From Parvibaculum lavamentivorans DS-1 (lineage in GTDB: Bacteria > Pseudomonadota > Alphaproteobacteria > Parvibaculales > Parvibaculaceae): DNA of 64,000 nucleotides. Below the pieces are notes generated by a model. That model worked only from the letters and a program-made list of their open reading frames with translations, did not search any database and had not been told where the DNA came from. The stretch is taken from NCBI RefSeq assembly GCF_000017565.1, contig NC_009719.1:1550001-1614000 (forward strand), given 5' to 3'. Shown here in pieces: positions 32,598-38,720 of the stretch. Every line of letters starts with the position of its first letter. Positions within the stretch are counted from its first letter, which is position 1. Both the position numbers and the translations under genes were made by a program.

Positions 32598-32623
32598 GGA
32601 TCGGCCGTGATTTGAACGAAACC

Positions 32624-32661
32624 AGCGGGGTTTCCGGTTTTCCGGCAGCCCCGCTTCTTTT
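32624..32661 (+). terminator. Terminator between sucD and sucA
   Basis: AGCGGGG (32624-32630) pairs with CCCCGCT (32649-32655), with an inner CCGG/CCGG pair, followed by TCTTTTTT. It implies that sucA has its own promoter in 32662-32843. Confidence 0.8.
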
Positions 32662-32843
32662 TTGAACCCTTTGTTGACGGGTGGCGTGTTAATTTGTCAT
32701 CCGTTTACTATATGCTTCTCGCGCGAACGGTGTTTTGGCCCTGTTAACAAGGCTAGTTGCGCGCTTCTCTGGTTTTCTTCCAGAATGTGCCGTCAAGGCA
32801 AAATGCGTTGACAGGCCCATTGCCTCTGTGGCAATTTTCCTCC

Positions 32844-35800
32844 ATGAAACTTTCCGACTGGCTCGAAACAAACAATCTGACGGCGAGTGCCTTCGCCGAG
32901 CAGCTTGGTGTTTCCGTGTCCACGGTCACTCGCTGCATGAACGGTCAGCGCCGGCCTGAATGGCCCACGCTGGACTCGATCTTCAAGGCGACGGGCGGCG
33001 CGGTGACGCCCAATGATTTTCTGTCCGATGCCGCGGCTCTTCAGGGAACGGCGCCTGCCTCCCCAAAGCCAAATGGATCCGATCCGATGAGCAGTAATGG
33101 TTCGAACGACCGCTTCGAGCGGACGTCGTTTCTCTATGGCGGCAACGCGCTCTTTGTCGAGCAGCTCTATGCCCGCTACCAGAAAGACCCCCAATCGGTC
33201 GATGCGGAGTGGCGCACCTTTTTCGAAAGCCTCGGCGATGCGCCCGAAGACGTGCTGAAGGAAGCCAGGGGCGCCTCCTGGCAGCGCGCCGACTGGCCGA
33301 TCGCCGCCAATGGCGAACTGGTGAGCGCGCTTGACGGCAACTGGGGTGCGACGACGGCCGTTGAGGCCGGCAAGGTCAAGGACAAGATCGCGGAGCGCCG
33401 TCCGGCGGCCAGCGAAGAGGAAATTCGCGCGGCAACGCTCGATTCCGTCCGTGCGCTGATGATGATCCGCGCCTATCGTATTCGCGGCCATCTCGATGCC
33501 GATATCGATCCGCTGAAGCTTCGTCCGAAGTCGCAGCATCCCGAATTGCAGCCTGAAAGCTATGGCTTCGGGCCGGACGATCTCGACCGGCCGATCTTCA
33601 TCGACCATGTGCTCGGCCTCGAAACGGCGACCGTGCGCGAGATGCTCGACATCCTGCGCCGCACCTATTGCGGAACGCTCGCCGTCGAATTCATGCATAT
33701 CGGCGATCCCGAAGAAAAGGCGTGGATACAGGAACGCATCGAAGGGCCGGACAAGGAAATCGCCTTCACGGACATGGGCCGTTCGGCGATCCTCGACAAG
33801 CTTATCCAGGCGGAAGGCTTCGAAAAGTTCTGCGGCGTCAAATATGTCGGCACCAAGCGTTTCGGTCTCGATGGCGCGGAAGCGATGATCCCGGCGCTCG
33901 AACAGATCATCAAGCGCGGCGGCGCGCTCGGCGCCAAGGAAATCGTTTTCGGCATGGCCCATCGCGGCCGGCTCAATGTGCTGACCAACGTGATGTCGAA
34001 GCCCTATCACGCGGTTTTTCACGAGTTCAAGGGCGGTTCCTCGACGCCGGAAGACGTCGATGGTTCAGGCGACGTGAAGTATCACCTCGGCGCCTCGTCG
34101 GACCGTGAGTTCGACGGCAACAAGGTGCATCTCTCGCTCACCGCCAATCCGTCGCATCTCGAAATCGTCGATCCCGTCGTGCTCGGCAAGGCGCGCGCGA
34201 AGCAGGACCAGCATCACGACCGCCAGCGCGGTTCGGTGATCCCGCTCCTCATTCACGGCGATGCCGCCTTCGCGGGCCAGGGCATCGTCGCCGAGTGTCT
34301 CGGCCTGTCCGACCTCAAGGGGCATCGGACAGGCGGCTCGATCCATTTCATCATCAACAACCAGATCGGCTTCACGACGAGCCCGATCAACAGCCGCTCG
34401 TCGCCCTATCCCTCGGATGTGGCGAAGATGGTGCAGGCGCCGATCTTCCATGTGAATGGCGACGACCCGGAAGCGGTTGTCCATGCCGCCAAGATCGCGA
34501 CCGAGTTCCGCCAGCGCTTCAACAAGCCTGTCGTGATCGACATGTTCTGTTATCGCCGCTTCGGTCATAACGAAGGCGACGATCCGAGCATGACGCAGCC
34601 GCTCATGTACGAAAAGATCAAGGATCATCCGACGACGCTGCAGATTTATTCGCAGCGGCTGATCGAGGAAAACCTGATGACGGCGGCGGAAGTCGATGAG
34701 CGGCTTGCTGCTTTCCGCGCCGAGCTCGAAAGTCATTACGAGGCCGCGGGCACTTTCCGTCCCAACAAGGCGGACTGGCTCGATGGCCGCTGGTCCGGCT
34801 TCAGCAAGGCGGAAGGCGAAGCGCGCCGGGGCGAAACGGCCGTCGAGGTCGACAGGCTGCGTGAGATCGGCCGCAAGATCACCGAGGTGCCGGAAGGCTT
34901 CCACATCCACAAGACCATCCAGCGCTTTCTGGACAATCGGCGGAAATCGATTGAAACCGGCGAAGGCATCGACTGGTCGACGGCGGAGGCGCTCGCCTTC
35001 GGTTCGCTGGTCTCCGAGGGCATCAAGGTCCGTCTCTCGGGTCAGGATTCCGAGCGCGGCACCTTCGTGCAGCGCCATTCGGTGCTGAACGATCAGCAGA
35101 CCGAAGACCGTTACGTGCCGCTCAACAATATCTCCGAGGGCCAGGCCGAATACGAAGTCATCAACTCGATGCTGTCGGAAGCCGCCGTTCTCGGTTTCGA
35201 GTATGGTTACAGCCTCGCCGAGCCGAATGCGCTTGTGCTCTGGGAAGCGCAGTTCGGCGACTTCGCAAACGGCGCGCAGGTCGTGATCGACCAGTTCATT
35301 TCGTCGGGCGAGCGGAAATGGCTTCGCATGTCGGGCCTCGTCATGCTGCTGCCGCATGGTTATGAGGGGCAGGGGCCGGAACATTCCTCCGCCCGCCTCG
35401 AGCGCTTCCTGCAGATGTGCGCGGAAGACAACATGCAGGTCGCGAACTGCACCACGCCGATGAACTATTTCCACATTCTGCGCCGGCAGATGCACCGCAA
35501 GTTCCGCAAGCCGCTCATCCTGATGACGCCGAAGTCCCTTCTGCGTCACAAGCGGGCGGTGTCGAGGATCGAGGAGTTCGGTGCCGGTTCGTCCTTCCAC
35601 CGTGTGTTGTGGGACGATGCGGAGCTGCTGCCCGACCAGAAGATCAAGCTTTTGCCCGACAAGGACATCAAGCGCGTCGTGCTCTGCTCGGGCAAGGTCT
35701 ATTACGATCTCTATGAAGAGCGCGAGCGCCGCGGCATCAACGACATCTACATCCTGCGCGTGGAGCAGCTTTACCCCGTTCCCGCGAAGTCGCTGATGAC

Positions 35801-36038
35801 GGAGCTGGCGCGTTTTCCCGAAGCGGAATTCGTCTGGTGCCAGGAAGAGCCGAAGAACATGGGCGCCTGGAACTTCATCGAACCCAATATCGAATGGGTG
35901 CTCAATCATGTCGGCACGCGCTATCGCCGCGCAACCTATGCCGGCCGTCCGGCATCGGCGGCCACGGCGTCGGGCCTCATGAGCAGGCACAATCAGGAAC
36001 TCAACCAGCTTCTTTCGGAAGCGCTGAAGATCGATTGA
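32844..36038 (+). CDS. sucA: 2-oxoglutarate dehydrogenase E1 with N-terminal helix-turn-helix domain
   Basis: Decarboxylates 2-oxoglutarate with ThDP and passes the succinyl group to SucB. From ATG 32844 the frame gives 1064 residues. Residues 1-60 are a Cro/CI-type HTH ([20 protein letters not shown], then [15 protein letters not shown] and [10 protein letters not shown]), 61-81 a flexible linker, and at Met82 (base 33087) the ordinary E1 start begins ([20 protein letters not shown]). There is no stop between them. E1 motifs follow: [20 protein letters not shown] and [10 protein letters not shown] for ThDP/Mg, and a C-terminal transketolase-like half with [11 protein letters not shown]. Neither start has a strong ribosome binding site; ordinary SucA of 983 residues may also be made from 33087. 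In lactate-to-TCA terms the enzyme itself looks intact. Confidence 0.93.
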
Positions 36039-36078: not shown

Positions 36079-37320
<1,242 letters not shown>

Positions 37321-37328
37321 GGTAAACA

Positions 37329-38720
37329 ATGGCTGACTCATTCGACCTCGTGGTGATCGGCGCCGGGCCCGGCGGCTATGAATGCGCAATCAAATCGGCG
37401 CAGCTCGGCCTCTCGGTTGCCGTGGTCGAAAAGCGCGACCGTCTGGGCGGCACCTGCCTCAATGTCGGCTGCATTCCCTCGAAGGCGCTGCTCCACGCAT
37501 CGGAACTGTTCCACGAGGCGAGCGCCAGCTTCCCCGGCATGGGCATCGAGGTCGGGACGCCGAAGCTCAATCTCGGCCAGATGCTCTCCTTCAAGGACGA
37601 AGCCGTCGACGGCAACACCAAGGGCGTCGAGTTCCTGTTCAAGAAGAACAAGATCGAATGGGTGAAGGGCGAAGGCCGCATCGAAGCCAAGGGCAAGGTG
37701 AAGGTCGGCGACCGCGTGCTCGAAGCGAAGAACATCGTGATCGCGACCGGCTCCGATGTCGCAAGGCTGCCGGGCATCGAGATCGACGAAAAGACGATTG
37801 TCTCCTCCACAGGCGCCCTCACGCTCGAGAAGGTGCCGGGCAAACTCCTCGTCATCGGCGGCGGCGTCATCGGCCTTGAGCTCGGTTCCGTCTGGTCCCG
37901 CCTCGGCGCGGAAGTCACCGTGGTCGAATTCCTCGACAACATCCTTCCCGGCATGGATGGCGAGGTCGTGAAGAATTTCACGCGCATCCTCAAGAAGCAG
38001 GGTTTCGCCTTCAAGCTCGGCGCCAAGGTGTCGAAGGTCGAGAAGCAGAAATCCGGCCTCAAGGTTTCGGTCGAGCCCGCCAAGGGCGGCGACGCCGAAA
38101 CGCTCGATGCCGATGTCGTGCTCGTCTCCATCGGCCGCACCGCCTATACGCAAGGCCTCGGCCTCGACAAACTCGGCGTGAAGACGGACAAGCGCGGCCG
38201 CGTCGAAATCGACGCGGGCTTCAAGACCAATGTCGACGGCATCTATGCGATCGGCGATTGCGTCGCGGGCCCCATGCTCGCCCACAAGGCGATGGAAGAG
38301 GGCGTGGCGCTGGCCGAGCAGCTCGCGGGCCATTACGGCGCCGTGAATTACGACGTCATCCCCGGCGTCGTCTATACCTCGCCGGAAGTCGCAAGCGTCG
38401 GCAAGACGGAAGAGCAGTTGAAGGAAGCGGGCATCGACTATAATGCCGGCAAGTTCCCGTTCACGGCGAATGGCCGCGCCAAGGCGAACAAGACCACCGA
38501 AGGCTTCGTCAAGATTCTCGCCGACAAGAAGACAGACCGCATCCTCGGCATTCACATCATCGGCGTCGGCGCGGGCGAAATGATCGCGCAGGCCGTCACC
38601 GCGATGGAATTCTCGTCAAGCTCCGAAGACATCGCCCGCATGTGCATCGCGCACCCGACCATGTCGGAAGCGATCAAGGAAGCCGCGCTGGCGGTCACGG
38701 GCCTGCCGATCCATATGTAA
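37329..38720 (+). CDS. lpd: Dihydrolipoyl dehydrogenase (E3)
   Basis: FAD enzyme that reoxidises the dihydrolipoyl groups of E2. 463 residues. FAD motif [10 protein letters not shown] near 11-20; redox disulfide in [20 protein letters not shown] motif [13 protein letters not shown]; second FAD motif [17 protein letters not shown]-terminal active-site [14 protein letters not shown]. Starts 8 bp after sucB and is co-transcribed with sucAB. A short palindromic repeat follows. Confidence 0.98.

Follow-up and report, generated by a model that had tools for sequence, protein, structure and literature searches.

Fusion of an Xre-type helix-turn-helix domain to 2-oxoglutarate dehydrogenase E1 in Parvibaculum, with candidate operators before its gene

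The trifunctional PutA protein of Escherichia coli and Salmonella is an enzyme of proline catabolism that carries an N-terminal ribbon-helix-helix domain and acts as an autogenous repressor of put (PMC5293562). In its way of working, this protein is the closest known counterpart of the one considered here, HTH-E1 of Parvibaculum lavamentivorans DS-1, in which a helix-turn-helix (HTH) precedes the E1 subunit (SucA) of 2-oxoglutarate dehydrogenase. Both have a small DNA-binding domain at the N-terminus of a catabolic enzyme, and only some relatives carry the domain. Like PutA, HTH-E1 has conserved operator-like sites before its own gene, with the DNA-binding domain encoded in the same open reading frame. 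The two differ in that the domain is an Xre-type HTH in HTH-E1 and a ribbon-helix-helix in PutA, and in that E1 is an enzyme of the TCA cycle. Moreover, no membrane switch is known for HTH-E1, and its operator binding is proposed from sequence. Membership of HTH-E1 in the PutA family was considered and rejected because its Pfam matches include neither a proline dehydrogenase nor a ribbon-helix-helix domain.

An enzyme or enzyme-like domain is also joined to a DNA-binding domain in BirA, NadR and the MocR-type regulators. These involve other enzymes and other HTH classes, whereas the enzyme part of HTH-E1 is a complete, highly constrained housekeeping subunit. An extra N-terminal domain is likewise present in the actinobacterial E1/E2 fusion, where E1o carries an E2 acyltransferase domain (E1/E2 chains such as 8p5t were listed among the structure matches of the SucA body), but the additional domain of HTH-E1 is a DNA-binding one. 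Free-standing Xre-type proteins (L101, L103, L107) have a similar HTH, some with a palindrome of five-base spacing (N5), but no enzyme is attached to them. The earlier note on this DNA, drawn up from the letters alone, was not aware of any E1 bearing a DNA-binding domain, and in this it agrees with the literature surveyed (titles and the starts of abstracts, with few subscription papers, such that an earlier description is possible), which describes no fusion of an HTH to E1, RibBA or MeaB and none of an Xre domain to glutamine synthetase.

The fused sucA frame

The window, that is, the whole stretch analysed, comprises 64,000 nucleotides of the DS-1 genome, itself a single contig of 3,914,745 bases. 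On the forward strand the sucA frame runs from 32757 to 36038 with no internal stop, as had been claimed. Read from the ATG at 32844, the frame gives a long form of 1064 residues made up of an Xre-type HTH, a linker and a complete E1; the HTH and linker account for 81 residues ahead of the ordinary SucA start at 33087. The HTH domain (residues 1-61; 32844..33026, forward strand) is delimited by Pfam, a structure model, Xre-like PDB neighbours, conservation and codon-level constraint, and is followed by a variable linker (residues 62-81; 33027..33086, forward strand) in which the alignment has an in-frame two-residue length change among relatives.

When compared with Pfam, the 81-residue piece matches HTH_31 (E 2.1e-08; 34.8 bits, cut-off 27), HTH_3 (24.9 bits, cut-off 23) and HTH_26 (23.6 bits, cut-off 22), and in the 1093-residue frame HTH_31 is the one HTH profile above its cut-off (30.3 bits). 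The model has five helices (3-9, 14-21, 25-33, 40-50 and 56-60; mean pLDDT 73), of which helix 14-21 is encoded at 32883-32906 and the recognition helix, 25-33, at 32916-32942, both on the forward strand and close to the Cro/CI HTH that had been placed at about residues 15-38. Its best PDB neighbours by Foldseek include HigA, SinR, ClgR and other Xre-type proteins, none with an E-value at or below 0.001. Assignment to the Xre (Cro/CI-type) class is based on the profile match above a curated cut-off and on the five-helix fold of the model. The predicted structure of full-length HTH-E1 has a mean pLDDT of 37, too low to be of use.

By its sequence, the SucA body (33087..36038, forward strand) is a complete 2-oxoglutarate dehydrogenase E1: Pfam E1_dh, Transket_pyr, OxoGdeHyase_C and 2-oxogl_dehyd_N all match, NCBIfam PRK09404 scores 1447 bits (cut-off 764), and co-linearity with E. 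coli SucA (2jgd) extends over two stretches that cover nearly the whole of E1. The 2-oxogl_dehyd_N segment (PF16078; 33123..33242, forward strand), which we take to be the part of E1 that attaches to E2 in docking, comes directly after the HTH and linker. The GC content at third positions is 0.74 in the HTH, fairly high as the earlier note had said; for SucA it is 0.80, and for the 29 codons that precede 32844 it is 0.59. The gene is followed, also on the forward strand, by sucB (E2; 36079..37320) after 40 bases and by lpd (E3; 37329..38720) after a further 8, both taken from the open reading frame list and named by reading, and the three genes presumably form one operon.

Distribution, constraint and a possible second start

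A search of relatives for the same fusion, which had been suggested as a check, found it, likewise in frame, in 15 of the 27 genomes of the genus (16 places), well above what chance would give; nine others have sucA without the HTH, and the three in which no SucA match was found are all incomplete (74-88%). Two of the fused places belong to one genome with 6% contamination (G012), and another genome (G001) has an additional, second SucA-like match without the HTH. The fusion is absent from SucA matches in other genera. Among 13 genomes of the family outside the genus, a single one has an HTH, of 40% identity and in a short frame, and among the matches listed for 387 genomes of the class the HTH lies in a frame of more than 900 residues only in G000 and G011. 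Fourteen named records of the fusion are metagenome-assembled loci with the labels Parvibaculum, Parvibaculaceae, Rhodobiaceae or Alphaproteobacteria; the fifteenth locus of that search, from Aquabacter spiritensis, has the HTH on RibBA. A sequencing or assembly artefact, which the origin of the window in one genome might have suggested, has a negligible probability and is already refuted by independent assemblies, as the HTH and linker recur in 15 separate genomes with 78-99% identity to the DS-1 window and the 14 named metagenome loci overlap these.

Residues 20-40 of the HTH, which include the recognition helix, are identical in 15/15 loci. When SucD, SucA and a neighbouring lipoprotein were joined and aligned as one string (25 rows, with three of the eight unfused rows from other families and with some rows lacking one or more of the proteins), the fused genomes formed one clade with support of 95/97, recovered in 96% of bootstrap trees; in a tree of SucA by itself (30 rows) the fused rows were not one clade, and they were united in 6% of bootstrap trees. 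Calculated as mean pN over mean pS for 105 pairs of 15 loci, pN/pS is 0.813 for the 29 codons before 32844, falls to 0.109 over residues 1-61 (the HTH), rises to 0.634 across the linker, and is 0.291 for SucA residues 1-100 and 0.059 for SucA residues 101-400. The earlier note had suggested measuring selection on the HTH; by this measure it is under strong purifying selection, and we infer from the comparison that the domain is being maintained, under a constraint almost equal to that on the enzyme. The drop from 0.813 to 0.109 at 32844 points to a translation start at or near this codon.

The ATG at 33087 is kept in 15/15 fused loci, and four codons before it (nine bases between the two) is a GGA codon (33075..33077, forward strand) that is invariant in 15/15 loci; GGA is the mostly used codon in 0 of the 32 invariant glycine columns of SucA 1-400. 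This GGA could possibly act, weakly, in ribosome binding for a shorter E1 lacking the HTH, which a second start at 33087 may yield. Calculated anti-Shine-Dalgarno pairing at 33087 (mean -3.6 kcal/mol) is about that of 49 control ATGs in sucA (-2.9), so the argument for a second start comes entirely from base conservation. The same two features are what could be put forward for a neutral accident, in which the stop of an HTH gene neighbouring sucA disappeared and the 983-residue form is the one in use. This was one of two readings offered in the earlier note, and it is highly improbable in view of the purifying selection on the HTH, the in-frame change of linker length, the confinement of the fusion to one clade, the lack of any stop inside the HTH match at 16/16 fused places and the finding that none of the 15 unfused loci examined has an HTH match ahead of sucA. 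The other reading, a bifunctional E1/regulator, is much better supported, by the clade, the constraint, the missing upstream HTH and the candidate operators described below. A stop between the HTH and SucA, named at the time as a finding that would speak against it, does not occur in the window frame. From these comparisons of sequence, the HTH-E1 fusion is real and conserved, and it is very probably functional.

Candidate operators and the sucA leader

Two palindromes, not mentioned in the earlier note, precede the ATG at 32844 and share the pattern KTGCC-N5-GGCAA (K is G or T) with its five-base spacer. Candidate operator 1, GTGCC-N5-GGCAA, is at 32787..32801, and candidate operator 2, TTGCC-N5-GGCAA, is at 32820..32834 and ends 9 bases before the ATG. 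Across 15 loci, the scored half-site bases are invariant in both (8/8 in operator 1, TGCC and GGCA; 10/10 in operator 2), as are 0/5 and 1/5 of the respective spacer bases, so that 18/18 half-site bases are invariant versus 33/187 over 32600-32786. We read the palindromes as operators. They lie between a plausible terminator and the ATG, an arrangement in line with the earlier suggestion that the promoter of this gene is under the control of the HTH.

The paired sites and the HTH are nevertheless two observations whose link is one of sequence, and the palindromes might bind a separate regulator, with the HTH on E1 being a bystander or a structural add-on. We consider this improbable, since the pair is directly upstream of 16/16 fused copies and is not found beside sucA in unfused genomes of the genus (elsewhere in the 27 genomes the paired pattern occurs at three places, none of them beside sucA), and since related HTH-enzyme genes are preceded by different palindromes of their own, in many cases with the same spacing.

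Between the candidate operators is an invariant TTGAC (32808..32812, forward strand; 5/5 bases in 15 loci), a possible -35 element that would put +1 at about the A of the ATG at 32844 and give a leaderless mRNA; a promoter built on it would be overlapped by palindrome 2. Some 130 bases ahead of the codon that opens the HTH, CTATAT (32708..32713, forward strand; 6/6 bases invariant in 15 loci), which in our view resembles a rhizobial -10, is possibly the -10 of an upstream and perhaps second promoter. A promoter scan returned no sigma-70-like promoter. The ATG at 32844 is not preceded by a Shine-Dalgarno sequence (over 15 loci the pairing averages -1.8 kcal/mol), and the long form would thus need a leaderless or other non-Shine-Dalgarno start.

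The intrinsic terminator that had been proposed upstream of sucA is plausible. It follows sucD (32624..32664, forward strand) and has a stem at 32624-32655, partly invariant in 15 loci, and a U-rich tail; the z-score of the stem fold is -2.97, and 2/200 shuffles were equally stable. A simple pattern scan missed it, perhaps owing to an internal mismatch. At gathering thresholds, Rfam had no match to the window or to any of 11 relative loci. The gap between sucD and sucA is 463-498 bases in fused loci (n=15) versus 134-249 in unfused loci (n=15), which suggests that the HTH, the palindromes and the leader were gained together or that the region was rebuilt. The unfused relatives (L020-L031, L033 and L034; 14 loci folded, with L032 left out) have a G+C-rich hairpin of the GGTGCGGG..CCCGCACC type just before the sucA start, and none was seen in the leader of the fused loci.

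Further targets were sought with KTGCC-N5-GGCAA, which occurs at 29 places in G000, giving 40 matches when counted by strand (8 for a control pattern), and 26 matches in the close relative G011 (25 for the control). In G000, frames were viewed around 21 places, two of them the sucA sites; the other eight were viewed as sequence, with frames for two loci. Sites with frames viewed are mostly inside a long frame. Three (L036, L051 and L129) look intergenic, and L051 is the only one of these with a counterpart among 20 G011 loci. Lying ahead of a putative lipoprotein gene, the L051 site occurs at 5 of 24 loci from the genus, including those of G000 and G011, and was rejected as a second target because it drifts in other loci to a TGTG..CACA-like element. 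This drifting palindromic element (L152-L175) is about 230-250 bases before the lipoprotein gene, reads GTGCC..GGCAA in the 5 loci and resembles TGTG..CACA in some others; in G000 it is between the lipoprotein gene and a porin-like gene. The search, by exact matches to the pattern and comparing G000 with G011 and the genus loci, found no conserved target beyond sucA.

Similar domains on other proteins and proposed self-repression

A profile search with the HTH in 387 genomes of the class found at least 35 places in at least 33 genomes. A similar HTH is present on small free-standing Xre-type proteins (L101, L103, L107 and others), and the genes at L101 and L107 have a perfect N5 palindrome before the ATG. 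RibBA, a protein of riboflavin synthesis, has a similar HTH at its N-terminus, recognised by Pfam at L093 and by similarity at L100, L113 and L178-L181 (L099, L105 and L109 are the same places as L178, L180 and L181). The palindromes of these seven places have 6/6 pairs in three and 5/6 in four; in five of the seven a TTTAG-N5-CTTAA-like palindrome is 23-50 bases before the ATG, and that of L093 is TTTCAG-N5-CTGAAA. A similar N-terminal HTH was also recognised on glutamine-synthetase-like proteins, at L104 and L121 by Pfam and, from reading by eye, at L110 and L119. At L117, an aspartate/ornithine carbamoyltransferase has an N-terminal HTH_3 score of 21, under the cut-off of 23, and at L120 a RuBisCO-like protein has an N-terminal HTH_3 match stronger than that of L117.

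HTH-MeaB was recognised by Pfam at L111 and by similarity at 25 places in 24 of the 32 genomes of the G044 family. The loci concerned (L111, L115, L112, L123, L193-L216 and L220, some of them the same places) encode a MeaB-like GTPase, and their hosts are a family of small-genome Alphaproteobacteria. At 25/25 places, which are related to each other and not independent, TTAACC-N5-GGTTAA or a near copy stands 1-8 bases before the ATG (21 with 6/6 pairs, four with 5/6).

The palindromes were compared in 80 bases upstream of 23 genes with a similar HTH, sucA included, after seven near relatives had been dropped from 30. A perfect six-pair N5 palindrome is present in 9/23 regions and absent from 14/23; shuffles gave a mean of 0.98 and a maximum of 4, and 0/200 reached 9, in a test that was not blind, as the N5 spacing was first noticed on some of the same regions. 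Among other spacers, three (5 regions) and seven (4 regions) are raised, zero is slightly raised (3 regions) and the rest are near chance; raised counts at three and seven are expected when one longer palindrome counts at several spacers.

Alternatively, the palindromes could act in the RNA, as hairpins close to the start codon through which translation is regulated, with the HTH a minor or an RNA-binding player. A stem of 5-6 pairs with a five-base loop beside the AUG could fold, the HTH-MeaB palindrome is (by eye) a few bases past the stop codon of the upstream gene, and L214 and L220, two copies of one genome, have a G/T pair. However, none of the other asymmetries is a G-U pair (G/A in sucA site 1, T/T in L209 and L216 of MeaB and in L178 and L181 of RibBA), and a five-base spacer favoured across Xre-fold families fits a DNA operator better; regulation by hairpins is therefore unlikely.

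We consider it likely, from the arrangement of the locus, that the 1064-residue protein is both E1 and the autogenous repressor of sucA-sucB-lpd via its own operators; the HTH-bearing enzyme would probably switch down its own production. E1 is a dimer, and a dimer would present two N-terminal Xre HTH domains by which a palindrome could be bound. The two operators, about three helical turns apart and adjoining the start codon, would be bound by HTH-E1, which would block the promoter of sucA-sucB-lpd and let free E1 set its own level. The HTH adjoins PF16078, and docking on E2 could hide it, with the result that repression would be left to surplus E1; undocked E1 is proposed as the signal because the HTH sits beside the presumed E2-docking segment. 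The state of a substrate or cofactor may be an alternative or additional signal. We infer each of these parts, namely, the binding of the HTH to these sites, repression, and a signal from free undocked E1 and/or substrate state.

There is perhaps an even chance that a small Xre HTH is a portable repressor cap in the Alphaproteobacteria, fused on repeated occasions to the N-termini of metabolic enzymes unrelated to each other (E1, RibBA, glutamine-synthetase-like proteins, MeaB, aspartate/ornithine carbamoyltransferase and perhaps a RuBisCO-like protein) and typically accompanied by a matching N5 operator of its own near the start codon, such that the enzyme is its own repressor and, in SucA, the signal is free E1 undocked from E2. 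If so, a core enzyme of the TCA cycle would report its abundance or assembly state directly to its own promoter, with no separate regulator in between. That similar domains recur on other enzymes, often beside palindromes that share the spacing, would then amount to a modular device for self-repression in the Alphaproteobacteria, and the many HTH-operator pairs would serve for working out Xre specificity.
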